In this document: positions 1,692 to 24,292 of the stretch, piece after piece | Layout: every line of letters begins with the position of its first letter | Position numbering within the stretch: position 1 is the stretch's first letter | Virus record (IMG/VR): IMGVR_UViG_3300046007_008332 | Span: 1 to 24,810 of that record | DNA length: 24,810 bases | DNA from: a virus | Strand: one strand, 5' to 3' | Notes under the pieces: model-generated | Databases searched by the model: none | The model's input: the letters and a program-made list of their open reading frames with translations, nothing else | Told to the model about the DNA's origin: nothing | Program-made: the position numbers and the translations under genes

Positions 1692-1778
1692 GCCCAACGT
1701 TTGAGGTCAGCGACGCAGCCCTAACCGCGAGCACGCAATGTGACGATTACATGCGTTCGCTGTAGCGCCTAGTTCGGC
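1692..1778 (+). other. attC site 1
   Basis: The site starts with GCCCAAC and ends with GTTCGGC. The inner arms GTCAGCGA and TCGCTGTAGC are complementary with one extra base on the right arm. The centre contains a small hairpin (ATGT / ACAT). It lies one base after the stop of the helix-turn-helix gene. The outer boxes mismatch at one position. That is expected when the right-hand half belongs to the next inserted cassette. Confidence 0.85.
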
Positions 1779-1869
1779 TCAGTGGTTGAGCTTTCCGTCT
1801 CCGAAAACTATTTTGATTTATTTTGAATTAGTGCTTGCAATCAATCAAAACGCAGTCAGGGTCTAACTC

Positions 1870-2058
1870 ATGACATCCACTAACGCAATGAACGCAGTTT
1901 GCAACGCCCTCGAAACCTACGCCGCCTCTTTGGGCGTCACCTTAACTGAGGCTGTAAACCTCTTTAAGACCGAAAAAAGCACCCAAGAGTGCATTCACCT
2001 TCTAGTGCTGGCGCAGGCCGATAAAGAGGGGCTCCGCAAGCTAGCTGCCACTCTATGA
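1870..2058 (+). CDS. Cassette protein, 62 aa, unknown function
   Basis: This is the first gene of a two-gene cassette that begins at the cleavage point in attC 1. It encodes a 62-residue, probably all-helical soluble protein, with an amphipathic stretch (NALETYAASLGVTLTEAVNL) that could pack as two helices. The ATG at 1870 is the first start after an AT-rich 90-base leader in which I see no convincing promoter. Its stop overlaps the start of the next gene (ATGA), which implies coupled translation. Function is unknown. The arrangement of two small overlapping genes, the second basic and DNA-binding-like, recalls toxin-antitoxin or small regulatory pairs, but no toxin family is recognisable. 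Confidence 0.6.
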   Translation: MTSTNAMNAVCNALETYAASLGVTLTEAVNLFKTEKSTQECIHLLVLAQADKEGLRKLAATL

Positions 2059-2246
2059 GCGCAGGTGGGAAAAGAAAAGGGGCAGGCCGCAAGGCAGGCC
2101 CCGCTAGGGTCGCAATAACGGTAAAGGTGGATCAATGCACGTCATCCAGATTCCTCCTCTACCGACACATCACGAATCTCAGCCAAGCCCGTGCATTCGA
2201 GCGGCTGGTTCGGGACTCCGTCCTGCCGAAACAGAGCAACCTTTGA
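2055..2246 (+). CDS. Small basic cassette protein, possible ribbon-helix-helix
   Basis: This 63-residue protein is the second gene of the cassette and overlaps the previous stop by four bases. The start is rich in Gly, Lys and Arg (KRKGAGRKAG). A beta-strand-like stretch (RVAITVKVD) and helices up to FERLVRDSV follow. That order resembles small ribbon-helix-helix DNA-binding proteins with a basic N-terminal arm; the assignment is tentative. The last codons (LPKQSNL) lie inside the degenerate attC 2, in the same frame that gives LPNV in the other cassettes. Confidence 0.6.
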   Translation: MSAGGKRKGAGRKAGPARVAITVKVDQCTSSRFLLYRHITNLSQARAFERLVRDSVLPKQSNL

Positions 2247-2277
2247 GCGGGTCATTCGCTGTAGCGCGTAGTTGGGC
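2225..2277 (+). other. attC site 2 (degenerate, shortened)
   Basis: The right half is intact: ATTCGCTGTAGCG followed by a GTTGGGC end box, as in neighbouring sites. The left half is worn down. GCCGAAA at 2225-2231 is the best left box, matching 6 of 7 bases of the complement of the cassette's own leading TTCGGC. The usual TCAGCGA arm is missing; only GAGCG near 2244 could pair with CGCT. At 53 bases it is shorter than typical attC sites and may no longer recombine. Confidence 0.6.
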
Positions 2278-2317
2278 CCCGTAACGACTGAATTTCCGAC
2301 AACTAAACGAAAACTCT

Positions 2318-2716
2318 ATGGATAAAACAAAAGCAGATATACTATACGATTCGCTCGCCAACTTCACGGACGAGGAAGGAGCGATAGAATGCGGGGCAAA
2401 AATGCGGGACTTCGCCCGCGAGCTTGAGATCGAGCTGAACGAGCAAGTGGCATGCAACGGCAAGGGAGCTGAACGTGAGGCTGCCCTGCTCGGAAAAGTG
2501 GAGCGGCTTGAGCGTGAGAACGCACGGATTCTGTCGAATGAAGCCTCGATTAACGACCAAATTTGCGAATTGGCGACGCAACTATCAAAACTCCGTGAAG
2601 CTGCGCAGTCCGTGGTTGATCGGTGGGAGACCCCGCTGTGGAAAAAAGTAGAACCAACTGCGGCTTTAATCTATCGGCTCCGAGATTCTCTGCCCAACGT
2701 CGAAGCTCAGCGATAG
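2318..2716 (+). CDS. Coiled-coil cassette protein, 132 aa
   Basis: This soluble protein has an acidic N-terminal third and a heptad-patterned central coiled coil (residues ~48-96, including LLGKVERLERENARIL and ICELATQLSKLREAA). The tail contains Trp residues (DRWETPLWKK). I do not recognise a family; similar coiled-coil proteins are common in phage early regions. The ATG at 2318 is the first in-frame start in the cassette and lies about 40 bases after the core site. The gene runs into attC 3, which encodes its last eight residues, LPNVEAQR. It is the only gene in the cassette at about 2272-2777. Confidence 0.7.
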   Translation: MDKTKADILYDSLANFTDEEGAIECGAKMRDFARELEIELNEQVACNGKGAEREAALLGKVERLERENARILSNEASINDQICELATQLSKLREAAQSVVDRWETPLWKKVEPTAALIYRLRDSLPNVEAQR

Positions 2717-2783
2717 CCAACAAACAAACTCCCGAACAATCAGGGGCTTAAGCGTGGTCATTCGCTGTAGCGACTGGTGGGGC
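2692..2783 (+). other. attC site 3 (type I centre, mutated right core)
   Basis: The left box GCCCAAC and left arm GCTCAGCGA pair with TCGCTGTAGC on the right. The centre is the type I sequence shared with sites 4 and 6 (CCCGAACAATCAGGGGC). The right end reads GTGGGGC instead of GTTGGGC, so the conserved GTT of the cleavage triplet is changed to GTG. The left box is a perfect complement of the GTTGGGC that opens this cassette, as expected for its free circular form. Confidence 0.8.
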
Positions 2784-2859
2784 TCGATTGCTCGATTCCG
2801 AAATAACCAATAAATAAACATGACGCGGCAACGTGTCTAAAAAACCACGAAAAATAAAC

Positions 2860-3150
2860 ATGAGTGAAAAACCAATGACAGCCCCTACCTTTACATTTTG
2901 GGGCGACAAATATCAAAAACTAGCCGACCTAGGAGATGGATGGGTACTTATCGCCCACCCGAACGGTCCCGCAGTTTGCAATGGTGACGCGATTTCGACC
3001 ATCGACATTTACGAGGGCGAATCACTAGCGCCTAAAATCATTAAATTACGAGGGCAAGAAGCGTTCCGAAAGTGGGCATGGCCTCGACTTAAAGAAGTGC
3101 TCACATTCCCCGATTTCCGACCATTGCCTAACGTTCAAGCTCAGCGATAG
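2860..3150 (+). CDS. Cassette protein, 96 aa, unknown function
   Basis: The protein is predicted to be soluble and mixed alpha/beta, with several aromatic residues (TFTFWGDKYQKLADLG, GWVLIAHPNGPAVC, RKWAWPRLKEV). No family is recognised. I chose the ATG at 2860. A GTG at 2833 would add nine mostly basic residues, and a further ATG at 2820 gives only a six-codon frame. Both ATGs are preceded by the same AATAAAC string, a small duplication that may reflect leader shuffling. The last residues, LPNVQAQR, are encoded inside attC 4. It is the only gene in its cassette (about 2778-3210). Confidence 0.65.
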   Translation: MSEKPMTAPTFTFWGDKYQKLADLGDGWVLIAHPNGPAVCNGDAISTIDIYEGESLAPKIIKLRGQEAFRKWAWPRLKEVLTFPDFRPLPNVQAQR

Positions 3151-3216
3151 ACCACAAACAAATACCCGAATAATCAGGGGCAAAAGCGGGCTATTCGCTG
3201 TAGCGCTTGGTTGGGC
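3126..3216 (+). other. attC site 4 (type I centre)
   Basis: The end boxes are GCCTAAC and GTTGGGC, which pair with one T-G wobble. The L arms GCTCAGCGA and TCGCTGTAGC pair with one bulged base, and the stem extends into GATAG / CTATTC. The centre closely matches sites 3 and 6 (ATCAGGGGC, AAGCGGGCTATTCGCTG). Confidence 0.9.
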
Positions 3217-3277
3217 TCAGTGCGGTTTGGGTTTCTGGCTCCAGAAATATTCATACGCGTTGGTTCGACTCCGTGCT

Positions 3278-3565
3278 TTAATTTCTTGCATCTTTAATAT
3301 TACTTTCAGCCCAATGAGTAGCATATCTAATCCTTGCCTTGGGATCGACATTCAACCCATTTTTGGAGCAGAATGCGAAGAACTCGTCCGCCTTAATTAT
3401 GGACCGTATAACCCTGGTTCCTTTGGCGGTCTCTCGGCGCTCGAATTTTTCAGCGAGAACTTTCCATTCATCGAATGTAGAAGGCATGTCCTTGACGCCA
3501 GCGACGACCTTAACGGCGTCATATTCGGTTTTATTCGTAAACCAAGCGAGTGCGATATGGCTCAT
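3278..3565 (-). CDS. Reverse-oriented cassette protein, 95 aa, conserved-hypothetical type
   Basis: The gene runs against the array direction and fills the cassette at 3211-3670. The ATG at 3565 lies eight bases inside the left box of attC 5; the frame stays open further upstream through the attC, but that extension looks non-coding. The protein starts MSHIALAWFTNKTEYDA, then has STFDEWKVLAEKFE and a later KADEFFAFCSKNGL. This layout (hydrophobic IALAWF strand, a YDEW/FDEW turn, then an EF..WC/FC helix) matches my memory of a family of small conserved hypothetical proteins found in many bacteria. No function is known to me. An antisense plus-strand frame (3227-3598) is open too, but its composition looks like a shadow. 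Confidence 0.7.
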   Translation of the reverse strand: MSHIALAWFTNKTEYDAVKVVAGVKDMPSTFDEWKVLAEKFERRETAKGTRVIRSIIKADEFFAFCSKNGLNVDPKARIRYATHWAESNIKDARN

Positions 3566-3573
3566 ATATTTCT

Positions 3574-3676
3574 GCCGAACGTCGAAGCTCAGCGATGAAG
3601 AGGAATGGCGCGACCTGTGCGGCTCGGAGCACAAGGCGTGACAGCCCTCGGAATTCGCTGTAGCGCTTTGTTCGGC
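3574..3676 (+). other. attC site 5 (type II centre)
   Basis: The end boxes GCCGAAC and GTTCGGC are perfectly complementary. The L arms are the usual GCTCAGCGA and TCGCTGTAGC. The centre differs from type I sites and contains CTCGGAGCACAA within a TGTGC / GCACA hairpin, shared only with site 8. Both type II sites follow reverse-oriented genes. Confidence 0.9.
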
Positions 3677-3742
3677 TCCGTTTTCATATTCCGTAATGCT
3701 TTCTATATTCAAATCTCCATTTATGTATTAAAACTTCATACC

Positions 3743-4117
3743 ATGAATCAATCGAAAGATAACGAATCCACTCATCAGCATTTTTCTGTGTCTGACCAAA
3801 GCCAGACTCAGCAAGGTGCTTGCCGTAAAAAACGCCTTCGTGAACTCGAATGTGAAGAAGCATCATCATTTCGTCACTTAAACTACTCTCATGCACGTCT
3901 TTTGATCGAGAATAACGGCGTAGAACCTGATCCAATTCCTACCGATGTGTTCTTTCGTATTCGAGAAGGGAAGCTGGTTCGGATAACCTTTGATATGCTG
4001 ACGCCAGAAGAGCTGATTTCGATTCAGCATGAACGCGAGACTGCCAATTTGCTATTAAATCAGAAAGCGGCTGCATTGGATGGTTTTATTTTGCCGAACG
4101 TTCAAGCTCAGCGATAG
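3743..4117 (+). CDS. Cassette protein, 124 aa, unknown function
   Basis: The first ~35 residues are polar and probably disordered (SKDNESTHQHFSVSDQSQ). A helical, charged body follows (KKRLRELECEEASSFRHL; FFRIREGKLVRITFDML; PEELISIQHERETANLLLNQ). No transmembrane segment or known motif is seen. The ATG at 3743 is the first start that lies wholly inside the cassette; the frame is open further upstream, but that would cross attC 5. The last eight residues, LPNVQAQR, come from attC 6. This cassette opens with TTCGGC and its own left box is GCCGAAC, a perfect match in circular form, so the cassette looks intact and potentially mobile. Confidence 0.7.
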   Translation: MNQSKDNESTHQHFSVSDQSQTQQGACRKKRLRELECEEASSFRHLNYSHARLLIENNGVEPDPIPTDVFFRIREGKLVRITFDMLTPEELISIQHERETANLLLNQKAAALDGFILPNVQAQR

Positions 4118-4182
4118 ACCACTGAAACTAGCCGAACAATCAGGGGCTAAAGCGGGCTATTCGCTGTAGCGCTTGGTTGGGC
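4093..4182 (+). other. attC site 6 (type I centre)
   Basis: The end boxes are GCCGAAC and GTTGGGC. The L arms and centre are nearly identical to site 4 (GATAGACCAC, CGAACAATCAGGGGC, AAGCGGGCTATTCGCTG). The mismatch between the end boxes is explained because the right box belongs to the next cassette. Confidence 0.9.
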
Positions 4183-4203
4183 TTTCTTTTTCTTTTTCTT
4201 TTT

Positions 4204-4434
4204 ATGAACAACGTTTGGATAAAAACATCTGACAGGCTTCCTGGTAACGTAGGCGATCAGCTCGATATACTTATGTGGTCTCCCGAGTGGTCAACGTGGC
4301 TGAAGGGCATGGTTACTATTTGGGAAGAACGCTGCGAGTGGGCGATATACGATTGGCAGAATGATAGATATTATGAATGGCCCTACGCTCCCGAGTTTTG
4401 GATGTCTCCGATTCTTCCTATGCCGAACGTTTAA
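4204..4434 (+). CDS. DUF551-like cassette protein, 76 aa
   Basis: The start NNVWIKTSDRLPGNVGDQLD matches the DUF551 pattern (W-I/V-S-DRLP near the N-terminus), and the end EFWMSPILPMP resembles that family's closing 'HWMPLPEPP'. DUF551 proteins are small, frequent in phages and of unknown function. The ATG at 4204 is preferred over an in-frame start at 4177, which lies in the attC core and would add only a Phe/Leu run from a pyrimidine-rich leader. The protein is unusually rich in Trp. The final Pro-Asn-Val codons come from attC 7, where the frame stops at once with TAA. Confidence 0.75.
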   Translation: MNNVWIKTSDRLPGNVGDQLDILMWSPEWSTWLKGMVTIWEERCEWAIYDWQNDRYYEWPYAPEFWMSPILPMPNV

Positions 4435-4515
4435 GGTGAGCCAGATGCGCAACACCCCCGATAATCGAAGCAATAGCGGGCCAATGCGCATCTTGGCTCT
4501 AGCGCCTTGTTGGGC
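4422..4515 (+). other. attC site 7 (divergent type III centre)
   Basis: The end boxes are GCCGAAC and GTTGGGC, but the inner arms differ from all other sites. GAGCCAGATGCGC pairs with GCGCATCTTGGCTC, giving a long stem with one bulged T. The spacer and AGCGCC next to the right box are conserved. This cassette probably came from a different integron lineage. Confidence 0.85.
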
Positions 4516-4569
4516 GTCTTTGTATCCCTTCCGAATAACCTTTAATGTAAACTCAAATCTTAGAAAAAC

Positions 4570-4797
4570 ATGAATAAGAAAATAAACGAATTGATAGATA
4601 GCCTAATCGCTCTGCCGACGACGGTATTCCACGCGTTGTGGATGTTGGTAATAATCGCGCTATTTCTGCCGATCATATTAGTCGTGGCAGCAATCGGCCC
4701 ACGCAAAAACTACCCGCTACTTGGGGACTGGTTGCGTGATCGCGTTAGAGTGGCCCGAACTGGTGAGTTTGTTTCTCTGCCCAATGCTGAATCTTAG
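4570..4797 (+). CDS. Small membrane cassette protein, 75 aa
   Basis: A short amphipathic N-terminus is followed by one long hydrophobic segment (residues ~18-43, including ALWMLVIIALFLPIILVV). A basic C-terminal part then contains LGDWLRDRVRVARTG. The positive C-terminal side suggests an inner-membrane protein with a cytoplasmic tail. No family is recognised. The start at 4570 directly follows an A-rich leader. The protein ends SLPNAES, the same frame and nearly the same codons as the attC-encoded ends of other cassettes, but the rest of that attC is missing. Its 3' end overlaps the reverse gene at 4745-4993. Confidence 0.65.
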   Translation: MNKKINELIDSLIALPTTVFHALWMLVIIALFLPIILVVAAIGPRKNYPLLGDWLRDRVRVARTGEFVSLPNAES

Positions 4798-4993
4798 AAA
4801 CCAAATCAGAATCTTTATTTATGAATGACCTCAATTCCTCCAAGACGTCCAAACTACCTTTTATATGCTTTACGCCAAATTCAAGTTCGGGCGGTAGCAC
4901 CTTCAGCATTTCTTCCGACTCCCGAAGTAGGTTTTGGATTTCGTGGTCGTTATTGAGGGCGTCCATTCGATTACTGTTGGTTGGAAAAGTCAC
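4745..4993 (-). CDS. Reverse-oriented cassette protein, 82 aa, possibly altered C-terminus
   Basis: The gene reads leftward from a GTG at 4993, fifteen bases from attC 8; an ATG lies nine codons further in. The protein is soluble and helical, with many acidic and leucine residues (NLLRESEEMLKVLPPELEFG, SLDVLEELRSFINKDSD). No family is recognised. The last ~17 codons cross a decayed left half of an attC and the end of the convergent membrane-protein gene. The C-terminus is therefore probably not original and may have been created by cassette fusion. Confidence 0.6.
   Translation of the reverse strand: MTFPTNSNRMDALNNDHEIQNLLRESEEMLKVLPPELEFGVKHIKGSLDVLEELRSFINKDSDLVSKIQHWAEKQTHQFGPL
4779..4798 (+). 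other. attC left-half remnant
   Basis: GCCCAATGCTGAATCTTAG resembles the left end of the complete sites (GCCCAACGTCGAAGCTCAG) with a few changes, but no L' arm or GTTRRRY end box follows. The left box matches 6 of 7 bases of the complement of the GTTGGGC that opens the cassette at 4509. It is probably the remains of that cassette's own attC. Confidence 0.6.
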
Positions 4994-5008
4994 GATGCGT
5001 TTTATTTT

Positions 5009-5111
5009 GCCGAACGTCGAAGCTCAGCGATGAGCGTGCTTGGCGCGGAATGTGCCGCTCGGAGCACAATCCGTGACAAGCATGCTCATTCGCTGTAGCG
5101 CTTTGTTCGGC
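5009..5111 (+). other. attC site 8 (type II centre)
   Basis: The end boxes GCCGAAC and GTTCGGC are perfectly complementary, and the L arms are GCTCAGCGA and TCGCTGTAGC. The centre folds further: GCGTGCTTG pairs with CAAGCATGC, enclosing TGTGC / GCACA. It is the same length (103 bases) and type as site 5. Confidence 0.9.
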
Positions 5112-5118
5112 TCAGTTT

Positions 5119-5532
5119 TCATCTTCTGAAAATAACGTCACCTCCGCCGGATGATTTATTGCGTTCAGAAATCGGAATATAATATGGTAGTTTGAATTCT
5201 GACTTTTGCTTATTCTTTAGTTCTTCAATCTCCTTGTTTTTAAGCTCTATAATTTCATTCACCTGTTTAATAGTATTTTCTAGTTCATTCATTTTAATTT
5301 TTCTTTTAAATGACACCCAAAACAATCCAACCAAGCAGAACACTATTCCGAGCGATGCTATTATTAATGTCCGTGTGCTTACCAACACCGTTGAGTCTGT
5401 ATTTCGCCAGACAACCTTCAGATACGCCACTATGGCTGATCCTGGTATTCCAAAGCTGGCTAGGATCGGTAGCCACTCTTTTAGCCATTTGGGCGGGAGA
5501 AGTATGGATTGCTTTTCGTGATTCATCTTCAT
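5119..5532 (-). CDS. Reverse-oriented membrane/coiled-coil cassette protein, 137 aa
   Basis: The gene starts at the ATG at 5532, one base from a left attC box, and reads leftward to 5119, just before attC 8. A second ATG two codons later is possible. Two hydrophobic segments (LPILASFGIPGSAIVAYLKV, residues ~20-42, and LIIASLGIVFCLVGLFWVSF, ~55-78) precede a Lys/Glu coiled coil (VNEIIELKNKEIEELKNKQK). A polar tail ends SSGGGDVIFRR. The frame stays open to 5940 upstream, but that part crosses the junction hairpin, a terminator and another gene and is not credible. It is probably an inner-membrane protein with a cytoplasmic coiled coil. Two-helix plus coiled-coil proteins occur among anti-phage effectors, but nothing here proves that role. 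Confidence 0.7.
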   Translation of the reverse strand: MKMNHEKQSILLPPKWLKEWLPILASFGIPGSAIVAYLKVVWRNTDSTVLVSTRTLIIASLGIVFCLVGLFWVSFKRKIKMNELENTIKQVNEIIELKNKEIEELKNKQKSEFKLPYYIPISERNKSSGGGDVIFRR

Positions 5533-5533
5533 T

Positions 5534-5550
5534 GCCCAACGTGAACTAGG
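5534..5550 (+). other. attC left-half remnant at the array/phage junction
   Basis: GCCCAACGTGAAC begins like a complete attC (box plus GT), directly beside the start codon of the reverse gene. No matching L arms or GTTRRRY end follow before the phage late operon. It marks the truncated right end of the array. Confidence 0.55.
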
Positions 5551-5557
5551 CATAGGA

Positions 5558-5598
5558 TTTTCCAGATAGGCGGGCGTAACCCCGCCCAAACTGGAAAG
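5558..5598. other. Two-part inverted repeat at the junction
   Basis: TTTTCCAG and CTGGAAAG form an outer 8-base stem with one wobble. GGCGGG and CCCGCC form an inner 6-base stem with a 6-base loop, separated from the outer stem by a small internal loop. It could be a terminator for the rightward array (TTTT follows) or a recombination or binding site. The stretch 5533-5723 holds no gene; beyond this hairpin and the terminator at 5691-5723 I see nothing definite in it. Confidence 0.5.
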
Positions 5599-6142: not shown

Positions 6143-6573
6143 TTCTTGGAAGTGTAGCGGCTACCCAGCCACCAGAAGATTGCAGTGAAAGCGGCAAATT
6201 GGAGTTCGGAGATCATGCCCGCCTGCACTTCTTCCGGTGCGTTGAAATAGGCGAGCGAAAGGATGCCGAGCAAGGCCCACGTAAGGCCTGGGCGTGTAAA
6301 TGCCCGCAAAGCCTCAACAATGCCCAGCAGCGAGGCCACCCACGACGCCGCGCCCTCGGGGATGGGGATTGCGTCGTTGGTTTTTTGTGAGGCGGCGAAA
6401 GCGTCCCAAGCGGACTGCTTCTCTGCGGCGGCGACCTTGGCGTTCATCAGCAGGATTTCAACCTCGGCGTTTTTCTTCTTCTGCCAGGTCTCGAAAAACC
6501 CAGTGCCGAGATGGAGGATGGAGCCGACGACGCCGCCGCCAGCTGCGTTGAATAGTATGTCGATGAGGCTCAT
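6139..6573 (-). CDS. Putative holin (3TM type)
   Basis: This 144-residue protein has a helical, Lys/Ala-rich N-terminal half (FFETWQKKKNAEVEILLMNA). Hydrophobic segments follow from about residue 81 (WVASLLGIVEALRAFTRPGL, then WALLGILSLAYF). A final segment reads AAFTAIFWWLGSRYTSKK. The RP-containing turn and the closing F-W-x-G-S-R motif match the family called 'holin of 3TMs' in phages and gene-transfer agents, which makes holes in the inner membrane at lysis. It overlaps both neighbours by four bases. Confidence 0.7.
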   Translation of the reverse strand: MSLIDILFNAAGGGVVGSILHLGTGFFETWQKKKNAEVEILLMNAKVAAAEKQSAWDAFAASQKTNDAIPIPEGAASWVASLLGIVEALRAFTRPGLTWALLGILSLAYFNAPEEVQAGMISELQFAAFTAIFWWLGSRYTSKK

Positions 6574-7016
6574 TCTTCGATGATGTAGGTTTTAACCACG
6601 CGCCCGACGAATGTCTCATGGTAAACGCGGGTGGTGTCGTAGCTGGAATTGTGAAGGCCCGAGGTGATCCAACCGGCTGAGGTGAGCTGGGCGAGTTGGT
6701 GTACGACGTTGCCCGAGGGCGTGCGGAAAACTACGAGGTCTCCTTGGCCGAGAACGCGGAAATCGCAGCGTTCGACCATGACCCATGCGACGACGCCCTC
6801 GCCTGCGGGGATGTAGGGTTGCATGGAGCCGGTGCCGAGGACGGCGATGAGCGGGTATCCCTCGCGCAACATGCCGTCGATTTCATGCGGCGCGACGGTG
6901 AAGGAGGGCGGGAGGGATTTGACCATAGAGCGGTGGCGTTGGATTTCCTCGGCAACGATGACGGCCATGACCGCAGCGCCGAGGCAGGCGAGGAGGGCGA
7001 TTAGGAGGATCTTCAC
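6570..7016 (-). CDS. Membrane-anchored S26B signal-peptidase-like protein
   Basis: This 148-residue protein starts with a transmembrane anchor (ILLIALLACLGAAVMAVIVA). The catalytic box GTGSMQPYIPAG contains Ser64. GQGDLVVFRTP and NVVHQL follow, with His106 where bacterial signal peptidase I has its general-base Lys. It closes with a GLHNSSYDTTRV region and VGRVV. The Ser-His pair and this order of boxes are those of the S26B (archaeal/ER type) signal peptidases. A phage-encoded version placed beside holins is unusual. It could process a membrane-tethered lysis or virion protein, or alter host secretion; the substrate is unknown. The alternative of a LexA-type (S24) peptidase is less likely because there is an anchor and no DNA-binding domain. 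Confidence 0.75.
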   Translation of the reverse strand: MKILLIALLACLGAAVMAVIVAEEIQRHRSMVKSLPPSFTVAPHEIDGMLREGYPLIAVLGTGSMQPYIPAGEGVVAWVMVERCDFRVLGQGDLVVFRTPSGNVVHQLAQLTSAGWITSGLHNSSYDTTRVYHETFVGRVVKTYIIEE

Positions 7017-10002: not shown

Positions 10003-10136
10003 GGGAGTGTGCGGACTTCGCCGGTTGAGATCGTGCGGAATGTGCCGTTTGGCAGCGTGCGGATTTTAGAAAGAGGGATGGCGGCGGTGGCCTTAAACTT
10101 GGCCGACAGCCGAAGCCATTTGATGACAGCCTTCAT
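9999..10136 (-). CDS. 45-aa small basic protein between tail genes
   Basis: The ATG at 10136 opens a 45-codon frame that ends with a TGA overlapping the tail-fibre start (ATGA), and it begins three bases after the stop of the preceding gene. The product starts MKAVIKWLRLSAKFKATAAI and ends with two related repeats, SKIRTLPNGTFRTI and STGEVRTL. Tight packing and the exact overlap support a real gene. The RTLPNGTFRTI-type repeats resemble short motifs that precede phage fibre genes. Function is unknown. Confidence 0.65.
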   Translation of the reverse strand: MKAVIKWLRLSAKFKATAAIPLSKIRTLPNGTFRTISTGEVRTLP

Positions 10137-10139
10137 CGG

Positions 10140-10499
10140 TTAAAGCGCGACGGCCTTGAGTTGCCCGCCTTGCACGCGCAGTAATTCGCCAGTGGAGAAC
10201 AGGCAGCGGAGCGTGTAGTGGTAAACCTGATTCACGGCAAGGAGCGCAGTCTTTGCGGCGTCGTGGTGCACTTGGCCGATGCCAGACGCGGCGGTGATAA
10301 TCAGGATCTCGTTTGCTGCCGAGGAAAGCGAAAAAATGGCGTCGGCATCCGCGTCAACCTCGCTCGCCTTCACGACTAGCTCGAAGGTGCAACCGCTGAT
10401 GTTAACCGCCGCGCCTGCGGACTCGGGATCAATGACCGTGAAAGACCAAATCGGGGAAGACCCGACGGCCAAGCAGAGATTCAAAGTCGCGCAGCTCAT
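10140..10499 (-). CDS. Virion-associated protein, 119 aa, unknown
   Basis: This soluble, beta-rich protein has SPIWSFTVIDPESAGAAVNI near the start, TFELVVKASEVDADADAIF in the middle and YHYTLRCLFSTGELLRVQGG at the end. The pattern (a W-x-F-x-V opening, a strand reporting per-element properties, and a closing R.Q.G.L) resembles small phage baseplate-upper or fibre-adjacent proteins of Ig-like fold. It lies between distal tail genes and the fibre, 43 bases after the upstream gene. A structural role is inferred from position. Confidence 0.6.
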   Translation of the reverse strand: MSCATLNLCLAVGSSPIWSFTVIDPESAGAAVNISGCTFELVVKASEVDADADAIFSLSSAANEILIITAASGIGQVHHDAAKTALLAVNQVYHYTLRCLFSTGELLRVQGGQLKAVAL

Positions 10500-10543
10500 G
10501 TTCCCACTTTTTGGATACGCGCTTGCGTGTCAAGTGTGCTCGA

Positions 10544-11281
10544 TCAAACCAAGGTGTAAAACGTGCTGGAGCTGGTCGCCGATACCGAGCCGAATGAGGG
10601 TATCGGAGGAGGCGCAGGCCAACTAGGATTAAAACGGGGCCCGCTCGCCGACGTGTCACACGTCTTATAGAGCGGAAACTCGTAGCCAAACACGGTTACG
10701 CTTCCAGCAGACGTGCGCGACCATGCCGCGTACCAGCCAGGGAAATCCTCATAGTATGCGTAGCCGGAAAAAGGACTTGGTCCTCCTATTTCCACGGATA
10801 CATCTCCTTCCGATGTATCCCAAGCCGTAGCGCCAAGGGTCTGCACAACCAAGCACCACCGGCTCACGTCCTGCGCGTAGCGGATACCCACCGCCTGGTA
10901 GCCGCTACTTGGGTCCGGCCCCCAAGTCGGCGCGGGCGTGGTGGAGTAATCCCAGACGATTCCGCCCTCTGCGTCGGGGAGTGCCAATTGCCCCTCTAGG
11001 CTGCATCTGCTTGCAGGGGCAGGAAACGAGGGCCGTGGGAATGAACGGGTCACTGTTTCACTGCTCGATGTCGCGGTAAGCGTAAGGGTAAAAGATTCGG
11101 TCAGCCAAAACAGCCGACACGCCTCATTCAGCCCCTCGTCACCGTCCGCTTGGGGCAGCAGCGCGTGCCGCCCATCGTAAGCCGCGTCGGTCATCGTTGG
11201 CACTGTGACCGCATCCCGATCAAACGGAAACGGGCAACGCTTGTCCGGCCCCCGATATTTGAATGTGGGCGAGGTGCTCAT
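10544..11281 (-). CDS. Distal tail / virion protein, 245 aa, unknown
   Basis: The protein is rich in Ser, Thr, Pro and aromatic residues, with few Lys. It has an N-terminal PTFKYRGPDKRCPFPFDRDA, several Trp-containing beta-like segments (WGPDPSSGYQAVGIRYAQDV, GYAYYEDFPGWYAAWSRTS) and a Pro/Ser-rich C-terminus. Six Cys residues are unusual for a phage cytoplasmic assembly. No family is recognised. It starts on the base that ends the previous stop (TGATG). Its position after the tape-measure gene fits a tail-tip or fibre-base protein. Confidence 0.6.
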   Translation of the reverse strand: MSTSPTFKYRGPDKRCPFPFDRDAVTVPTMTDAAYDGRHALLPQADGDEGLNEACRLFWLTESFTLTLTATSSSETVTRSFPRPSFPAPASRCSLEGQLALPDAEGGIVWDYSTTPAPTWGPDPSSGYQAVGIRYAQDVSRWCLVVQTLGATAWDTSEGDVSVEIGGPSPFSGYAYYEDFPGWYAAWSRTSAGSVTVFGYEFPLYKTCDTSASGPRFNPSWPAPPPIPSFGSVSATSSSTFYTLV

Positions 11282-22288: not shown

Positions 22289-24292
22289 TTAGCGACTAAA
22301 CACCGAATCACCATCGCCACCCGCGCCGCGCCTTTGTGAAATGGGGACGTAGGCAGGCAGGATTGAACTCGGCTGCGGGATTGGCGCACGCTCCACGACA
22401 ATGTTGCCCACGATGCGCTCGGGAGACTCGGCGGCGGGCTCAGCTGTCAAGGAATCCTTGACGACTGGTTCCGGCTTGGGGATCGCCGCCATTTCGGCAA
22501 GGATTCCCACCGTGTCGAACGTCAAGCGGCGGTGAGCGGCGAGCGCGTAAACGCGAATGTCCAGCGGCTCGTTGCGCCGGTTGCCAGCCTCGTAAATGTA
22601 ATAAGGCCGTCCATGGCTGTACCGCGTCATCCGCTTCTCGCTCGTCAGCTGATGATAAAACCGCGTGTCGTACCCGTGGCCCTTCGGGAAGTGCATCGAA
22701 CCAGGCCCAGGAACCGGGAGCATGATGCGCGAATAAATCACCGTCTTGGCCGCCGTCACGCCGACCATCCACTGGTGCACCTTGCGCTTGTTGTTGATCG
22801 ATGGCTTGCGCTGCATGATCGGGATCTGTTTGCCGATAGTGTTTTGCCCCTTCGACGCGAAGATACCACGCGACCGGCGTGGGCCGGTGAACTGCAAGAC
22901 GCGGTCTTGCTTCGCCCCCGAGTCAATGAACGTCGTGGCCGCGCCCATGGTCTTGCCGCTGGGGTGCTTGAAGGTTTTCGCGAGGAGCAAGTCTAACTCC
23001 TCCCACACCTTGTCTGCCTGCGTGTCGCCGTGGATAACGTAATACCCGAGCCCCCACGTTTCTTCCCCTTCGCCGTAGCCGACGAACTCGCATTCGATTC
23101 GATCATCCTGCACGTCGGCACCCGCCGCGATGCGCAGCACGCCAGCGGGCAATACCTCGTCGGGGTTGTAATCCTCGGCGCGCGCCAGCACCGACTTCTC
23201 GTCCAGCTTTTCAAATTCTTCTTCCGACGGTTCAGCCAAAAACGTGTTCATCCAAGGCTTCATGCGCTCGGGGCCGCCCGCCTTCGATTCGAGGAAATCA
23301 ACCGCAAACTCATGGAGCATGGAGGTAAACTGCGGCTTGTGACCCATGAGCCGGTAAAGCCCACTCAGGTGATATCCGCGCCGCCCCTTGAACGGTTGCC
23401 GTGCCTGCCAATGCCCGCGAACGATTGCGCGCTGCCGGTCAAGGTCAGTCCACCGGCAGCCGCACTCGCCCAAGTAGTAGGCCGTTTCCGGCATTGCCTT
23501 GCCCTCTGCGTCCTTGTCCCAACGCACGCCCGCCCATGTCAGCTCTTGCGCCTTGTTGCAGTGAGGGCAGAGCGCACGCCATGTGCGAAAGTCGGAATCT
23601 TCAAGGAGCGACCAAATCTTTGACCGGCCCTTGACCGTCGGCGTGGACATCTTGACCTTGACCGCGTTCGAGAAATTGGATGCGCGGCGATCCGCAAGCG
23701 CGCATGGGTCGCCCTCCTCGCCCGCCGAGAATGGGTCGGAGTCGATTTCATCCTGTAGCACGACGCGGCACGATGCTCGCCGCAACCCGCTCGGTGAGTT
23801 GGCACCGGCGATGCGGATAAACCCACCTGGAAAACTCTTTTGCAAAATGGTGTTCCCGCTGTCACGCGACCTCGCGTCCTGTATCAGCGCAGCCAATACC
23901 GGCGTATCTTGGATCATTGGATCGAGCTTCTCCTTCGAGTAGCCTTTCGATGCGTCAAGCGTCGGGTACTTGACCAAGATCGGCGACGGGTCGGCGTGAA
24001 TCATGTAGCCGATGAGGTTATTCATCAGCTCGGTTTTCCCGACCTGCGAGGCGATGCAAAGCACCGTTTCCCGCACGTCCGGCGCGGTGAAAGATTCCAT
24101 TATCTCGCGCTGGTACGGCACGCGGTCGCATCGATATTTGCCAGGCTCCGACGATGCACCACGCGAGAGGATGCGGTATTTCTCCGCCCACTCGGCGACG
24201 GTCATCTTCATCGGCCAACGCAGGAACTTCCACGCCCGAACCAGCGCGGCCCTATCGTTGGCACGGCAATACTTTTTGATGGCTTGGCTCAT
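22289..24292 (-). CDS. Terminase large subunit, GpA family
   Basis: This 667-residue protein is the DNA-packaging motor and nuclease. The N-terminal ATPase has Walker A SQVGKTE (~82-88) and Walker B CRVVLQDEID (~175-184). The C-terminal nuclease domain shows the GpA blocks GADVQDDRIECEFVGYG and TFIDSGAKQD with its acidic metal-binding residues. A CxxC...CGC zinc-like segment (LCPHCNKAQEL, YYLGECGCRW) lies between them, as in lambda gpA relatives. It overlaps the small subunit stop by four bases. GpA terminases usually cut at cos sites, which predicts cohesive ends; no cos site was identified. Confidence 0.9.
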   Translation of the reverse strand: MSQAIKKYCRANDRAALVRAWKFLRWPMKMTVAEWAEKYRILSRGASSEPGKYRCDRVPYQREIMESFTAPDVRETVLCIASQVGKTELMNNLIGYMIHADPSPILVKYPTLDASKGYSKEKLDPMIQDTPVLAALIQDARSRDSGNTILQKSFPGGFIRIAGANSPSGLRRASCRVVLQDEIDSDPFSAGEEGDPCALADRRASNFSNAVKVKMSTPTVKGRSKIWSLLEDSDFRTWRALCPHCNKAQELTWAGVRWDKDAEGKAMPETAYYLGECGCRWTDLDRQRAIVRGHWQARQPFKGRRGYHLSGLYRLMGHKPQFTSMLHEFAVDFLESKAGGPERMKPWMNTFLAEPSEEEFEKLDEKSVLARAEDYNPDEVLPAGVLRIAAGADVQDDRIECEFVGYGEGEETWGLGYYVIHGDTQADKVWEELDLLLAKTFKHPSGKTMGAATTFIDSGAKQDRVLQFTGPRRSRGIFASKGQNTIGKQIPIMQRKPSINNKRKVHQWMVGVTAAKTVIYSRIMLPVPGPGSMHFPKGHGYDTRFYHQLTSEKRMTRYSHGRPYYIYEAGNRRNEPLDIRVYALAAHRRLTFDTVGILAEMAAIPKPEPVVKDSLTAEPAAESPERIVGNIVVERAPIPQPSSILPAYVPISQRRGAGGDGDSVFSR

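Follow-up and report, generated by a model that had tools for sequence, protein, structure and literature searches.

The cassette array and its genes

The stretch of DNA analysed here (the window) is a 24,810-base IMG/VR virus record, IMGVR_UViG_3300046007_008332. It is a phage contig that carries an integron-type cassette array, with attC sites at 1692–5111, positioned between early and late phage genes. Forward cassette genes of this array read into the attC that follows them, and a preliminary description of the window drew attention to the C-terminal tail that their proteins come to share. The sites and site remnants of the array are the following.

1692–1778, + strand: attC 0 (GCCCAAC ... 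GTTCGGC), the first of the array, directly 3' of the phage gene at 1325–1690; covariance model 68.7 bits; repeats D1, D2 and D6
2225–2277, + strand: degenerate short attC with R'' GCCGAAA and intact L'/R', which stops the gene at 2055–2246 (LPKQSNL*); from sequence, L'/R' copy in repeat D1
2692–2783, + strand: attC with an f1 stop, TAG at 2714–2716 (LPNVEAQR*); covariance model 77.4 bits
3126–3216, + strand: attC with an f1 stop, TAG (LPNVQAQR*); covariance model 86.1 bits
3574–3676, + strand: attC of a cassette with a – strand gene; covariance model 67 bits, 81% identical to the 5009 site
4093–4182, + strand: attC with an f1 stop, TAG (LPNVQAQR*); covariance model 85.6 bits
4422–4515, + strand: attC with an f1 stop, TAA (MPNV*); covariance model 69.7 bits
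4779–4797, + strand: R'' remnant (GCCCAAT) of a lost attC in a fused cassette (LPNAES*); from sequence, CTGCCCAATGCTGAATCTTAG, copy in repeat D4
5009–5111, + strand: attC of a cassette with a – strand gene in last place; covariance model 71.6 bits, bottom-strand fold z –6.4 against shuffles
5534–5549, + strand: R'' remnant at the far array end, immediately ahead of where the – strand gene 5119–5532 starts; from sequence

The reverse cassette of a related phage (L123) that is homologous to the array-end cassette with the 5534 remnant has a full attC. The cassette genes, identified as open reading frames (ORFs) unless a profile match is given, are as follows.

2055–2246, + strand: KRKGAGRK-type small protein ending LPKQSNL, with relatives (G005/G006) that end DASLPNV*
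2318–2716, + strand: coiled-coil protein ending LPNVEAQR, in a 14-member coiled-coil group
2857–3150 (alternative start 2833), + strand: cassette gene ending LPNVQAQR
3743–4117, + strand: cassette gene ending LPNVQAQR
4204–4434, + strand: cassette gene ending MPNV
4570–4797, + strand: gene ending in the R'' remnant, SLPNAES
3278–3565, – strand: reverse cassette gene, profile match to PHROG 4753 (E 4e-17; function unknown in PHROG)
4745–4993, – strand: reverse cassette gene with a homologue on the same strand in phage L122

Here f1 denotes the frame that reads CCN AAC GTN at the attC, f0 the frame that reads GCC TAA C where the site has that sequence, and f2 the third frame. All six endings quoted in the preliminary description were recovered from the sequence and its ORFs, and all are in f1. 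Its count of six genes out of six becomes six out of seven, since orf 1325–1690, which precedes the first attC, is in f2 and has its own stop one base ahead of R''. Two of the six endings (SLPNAES, at GCCCAAT, 4779; LPKQSNL, at GCCGAAA, 2225) run into a degenerate R'' and not into an intact attC, and although most of these features lie within 2692–5033, one of the six genes, 2055–2246, is upstream of that interval. Three further + strand ORFs (3227–3598, 4821–5033 and 5310–5549) also end in f1 but overlap – strand genes, the first being antisense to 3278–3565 and the second overlapping 4745–4993. They are therefore probably spurious and were left uncounted, as they had been in the preliminary description.

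Searches of PHROGs and Pfam with the window cassette proteins gave matches only for 3278–3565 (phrog_4753), plus weak ones for 5119–5532, and no useful relatives outside arrays were found for a 132-amino-acid window protein or an 81-amino-acid f1 protein. The small coiled-coil proteins, which share an ELERENARLR core, are encoded by 2318–2716 and by 13 other cassettes, and their N- and C-termini are mosaic, as if pieces had been shuffled.

Architecture of the attC sites

We aligned 22 sites, drawn from the window and from loci sharing its core, and made a covariance model from the alignment. In the R''/R' and L''/L' arms, which leave one extrahelical base in the L arm, 96% of cells pair, a figure that falls to 23–48% when the arm partners are slid. 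The L arms show compensatory changes. Mispairing is frequent at the centre of R''/R', as expected when recombination exchanges R'. Together, these three features identify the window repeats as attCs, and the mispairing lends indirect support to recombination of the sites by an integron integrase. In predicted bottom-strand folds, every intact site had paired L arms, and most sites, though not the 4422 site, also had paired R arms; folding was clearly better than that of shuffled sequences in two sites only (z –3.2 and –6.4), with the others at z –0.7 to –1.7. No complementarity that would extend the stem between the motif upstream of R'' and the sequence after R' was seen by eye, and an Rfam scan of the window matched no family.

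As expected for cassettes made of one gene plus an attC, 38 protein families stand behind this single attC family. At least two R''-L''...L'-R' sites with a complementary R core define a cluster of integron cassettes without an integrase (CALIN), and the window holds seven such sites (E 2e-18 to 1e-13). A complete integron would have both intI and attI; attI was not searched for, and the integron integrase profile (TIGR02249) matched none of 17 phage records, but these are fragmentary and the absence is not proof. Of 28 records searched, seven had an IntI scoring above the cut-off, and each of these was a host genome. Lacking an integrase, the window array is therefore a CALIN.

Reading frames at the attC

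We then surveyed reading frames beyond the window, using the covariance model, which located 70 attCs across 12 phage records and a further 120 in host contigs from Verrucomicrobia. Because codon usage, scored with long phage ORFs as the training set, discriminates poorly among short cassette ORFs, the phage genes adjoining an attC were called by hand from their length, position, leader and homology combined. The 60 forward genes of the 12 phage records divide f1:f0:f2 as 38:15:7 (chi-square against equal use, P = 2e-6), and those stopped by the attC itself as 35:13:0. Counting protein families in place of genes, the phage split is 21:14:6 (P = 0.016). An automatic classifier gave the same picture for the phages (28:11:0), whereas it returned 3:4:0 for the 67 bounded host cassettes, in which reverse genes predominate. 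The bias is thus real in the phage lineage and is not a general property of host arrays. Equal use of the three frames, which would have told against the preliminary description, was not seen, and its view that chance is an unlikely cause holds across the phage records. In four regions of class 1 integron plasmids, cassettes near detectable R'' sites were too few for counting.

The stop codons on offer account for this pattern. Within R''/L'', f1 meets TAA or TGA at +10 or TAG or TGA at +22 (counted from the first R'' base), and 43 of 55 phage attCs have an f1 stop within 24 nucleotides. An early f0 stop, at +3, is found mainly where R'' base 4 is T (GCC TAA C), and an early f2 stop is rare (9/55). 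Where base 4 is T (GCCTAAC), f0 and f1 genes are about equally common (12:9, binomial P 0.66); where it is C or G (GCC[C/G]AAC), the ratio is 1:26 (T versus C/G, Fisher P 4e-5). All 7 f2 phage genes bring their own stop just upstream of the attC. Since f0 and f1 use tracks R'' base 4, the frame of the gene follows the available stop. The description of attC as a common stop module is in agreement with these data, as genes enter the site only in frames with an early attC stop.

Native and attC-joined C-termini

Two enzyme families link the endings seen in arrays with those of homologues elsewhere. In many phages, RNA ligases (PF09414) encoded outside arrays end in a conserved PK followed by about 1–10 residues (e.g. 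KALA* or KSLA*), whereas three array ligases end PK-SSYLPNV*, PK-SSCLPNVQAQR* and PK-SLCLG*, the last being in f0 and stopped by the R'' TAA, so that a single family has been joined to attC in both f1 and f0. Likewise, most outside relatives of a cytosine-methyltransferase-like protein end ADQWG* or carry a few residues more (ADQWGTL*), while the array protein ends ADQW-VGVPSA*, its stop again being the R'' TAA. In a phage with another attC type (L171), a ligase ends ...LQVA, followed by the TAA of GCCTAAC. More broadly, at L171 3594–3680, L170 3597 and L174 2745 the TAA that closes an RNA-ligase gene belongs to a different attC type or to remnants of it, and phage-borne cassettes are therefore probably wider than this lineage.

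Comparison of native and array ends shows that the native stop was lost in both enzyme families and indicates that attC was joined at the coding end and supplied a new stop in whichever frame worked. From these sequence comparisons we consider it highly probable that an attC fused at the coding end replaces the native stop and provides the stop codon, with the shared tail a by-product and not a purposeful tag. Under this scheme, the junction with attC would lie no more than about two to six codons from the native C-terminus, the cassette gene would lose its native stop, and the ribosome would run into attC up to the first in-frame stop. Because early stops in R''/L'' occur mostly in f1, in f0 only with GCCTAAC and usually not at all in f2, the surviving joins would use f1 or, at GCCTAAC sites, f0, and f2 genes would keep their own stop. 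LPNV, LPNVQAQR and similar endings would then be passively translated from DNA whose conservation serves recombination, and we infer that the frame is set by selection against long read-through and not by the joining reaction.

Several points weigh against this interpretation. The calls of short genes, being curated by hand, are judgements; related phages share cassettes, so that the genes are not independent; and the frame bias reaches only P 0.016 when counted by protein family. In addition, the earliest stop (+10) is commoner in f1 genes than in others (18/35 versus 8/30, P 0.048), and R'' deviates from CC less often in f1 genes (1/35 versus 5/30), so weak selection may act on the translated part of attC.

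Alternative explanations

Translation into attC could itself be useful, if the ribosome opened the R''/L'' arm in the mRNA, relieved a hairpin block and coupled translation to the next cassette. In mRNA, attC hairpins impede ribosomes, an effect that short ORFs within the site alleviate through termination and reinitiation (PMC8876359, section 3.2); the stops found here, at +10 or +22, do fall within R''-L''. However, f0 genes stop already at +3 and f2 genes before the attC, and many cassettes have A/T-rich leaders that resemble initiation sites of their own, all of which makes such coupling improbable as the source of the endings.

That cassettes are born by a joining reaction favouring a particular frame or junction sequence is slightly more doubtful still. 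The candidate sequence, TTCYKCWYT at –9 to –1 just upstream of R'', is found in phage arrays (where 97% of sites have T at –1) and is weak in host arrays, and the joins lie few codons from the native C-termini of the two enzymes. Yet this motif occurs in all frames and therefore cannot impose one, the RNA ligase family was joined in both f1 and f0, and the two frames are used equally where both offer a stop. Thus, of the earlier proposal that cassettes form by fusion in a preferred frame, the fusion close to the native C-terminus with replacement of the native stop stands, while an intrinsic frame preference finds no place in the 12:9 ratio.

The preliminary description also raised the possibility of a protein tag or interaction peptide. 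An exact LPNV end in 16 of the 35 f1 proteins, a QR end in 9 and the frequent likeness of the residues ahead of the tail ([SA][AS]L) would suit a functional C-terminal tag (degron, interaction peptide or localisation signal) common to phage cassette proteins. Conservation of the LPNV-coding DNA, however, is just as strong in cassettes that have it out of frame, non-coding or antisense. Of the f1 cassettes, 29/35 retain the valine codon, and of the others 23/30 (P 0.55); the TTCYKCWYT motif scores 6.9/9 before f1 genes, 6.2 before all others, 6.8 in reverse cassettes and 3.0 inside genes; between in-frame and other cassettes, the former thus does not differ and the latter differs little, and we found no protein-level conservation beyond the constraint on DNA. 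Nor do the 35 f1 proteins have a common C-terminus, as they show 14 different tails and 10 terminal dipeptides, and the same arrays contain f0 genes with the endings FSA, NSA and PSA. Stops of their own in homologues outside integrons, one part of an outcome that the preliminary description named as a refutation, are seen for the RNA ligase and the methyltransferase at the point where attC joins here, and these homologues end without the tail. A functional tag is therefore very unlikely. A degron or PDZ-type ligand was dropped because the terminal residues vary.

Finally, chance or an ORF-calling artefact (any ORF reaching attC being long open in f1, some antisense to a true gene), to which the small sample of 6–7 genes in one window and the antisense f1 ORFs noted above lend some colour, can be dismissed for the phage set, as the bias persists over 60 forward genes, in the automatic classifier and in the 35:13:0 count of attC-stopped genes, and includes enzymes of clear homology.

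A cassette locus at a fixed position in related phages

Two genes identify the phage context of the window.

1–1325, + strand: DnaB-like replicative helicase
22289–24292, – strand: gpA-type terminase (PF05876, PF20454)

An array (window 1692–5560) is found at the same place in the related phages L102, L103, L105, L106, L108, L122, L123 and L124, where it follows a homologue of orf 1325, faces a signal-peptidase-like gene (6570–7016 in the window) or does both, and where the cassettes differ. This fixed-locus array is more interesting than the tail itself. The exact core pattern occurs at 18 places among 85,000 prokaryote species genomes, 18/18 of them in Verrucomicrobiota, and in 8 viral contigs; no near-identical relatives of the window were found among deposited phages. 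Because the attC type matches verrucomicrobial arrays, the phage family with this array probably infects Verrucomicrobia, and its cassettes would be moved in trans by a host IntI. We tentatively propose that a verrucomicrobial phage lineage maintains the array at one position as a lasting accessory locus, borrows the host integrase in trans and builds cassettes by swapping the native stop for attC, with attC stops, and possibly ribosome entry, forming part of array expression.

The arrays show further recurrent features. A 6-codon leader ORF, ATGACGCGGCAACGTGTCTAA (MTRQRV*), is common to cassettes with different genes and lies about 20 bases ahead of the gene start (window 2820–2840; L103 10224; L105 8828; L124 12663; a variant at L123 6389 on the – strand); translational coupling by this leader is possible. 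TTCCGA is enriched in the first 60 bases after R' in phage cassettes (26/66 versus about 3 expected), after which the sequence is A/T-rich up to the start codon, and more weakly just upstream of R'' (8/62 versus 1.4). Toxin-antitoxin pairs are the usual stabiliser of cassette arrays, and a reverse cassette on the reverse strand of L107 (about 10030–10630) resembles a Phd/ParE-type pair. The Candidatus Thiodictyon syntrophicum plasmid pTs485 (L248) encodes an integron integrase 56% identical to the verrucomicrobial one, adjoined by small genes that are possible cassettes.

Comparison with known systems

We found no report of cassette genes systematically stopped by attC or of a frame rule in a literature that covered few subscription journals, and novelty is accordingly unproven. 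How a gene and an attC first join is a gap named previously (PMC12901181), and the two enzyme families described here give a direct before-and-after view: genes outside arrays show the native end, and those inside are joined to attC a few codons away, in two frames. They also serve as a warning to annotators that apparent common C-terminal motifs of cassette proteins can be attC sequence.

In ORF-11 of attI1, the stop is supplied by the first inserted cassette (PMC8876359). As here, a reading frame crosses a recombination site and is stopped by a codon of the partner site, but there it encodes a short attI leader peptide, whereas here complete cassette genes are stopped by their own attC. Fused cassettes with a truncated attC (PMC4670013) resemble the two-gene cassette at 4516–5111 of the window in that an attC has been lost between two genes; the genes here, however, are not resistance genes, and the second is encoded on the other strand. 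Chromosomal verrucomicrobial integron arrays share the attC family, including its 103-nucleotide subtype, but their genes are mostly reverse-oriented and read into attC in only 7/67 bounded cassettes.

CALINs in phage genomes have been published (17 CALINs, with attC × attI1 recombination assayed; PMC9892861), and the present lineage, with its variable cassette locus, adds to the few known. Both have several attCs with cassettes, no integrase gene and arrays oriented mostly one way. The array described here differs in its verrucomicrobial attC type, in occupying one genomic position in several related phages with differing cassettes, and in having genes that end inside attC.

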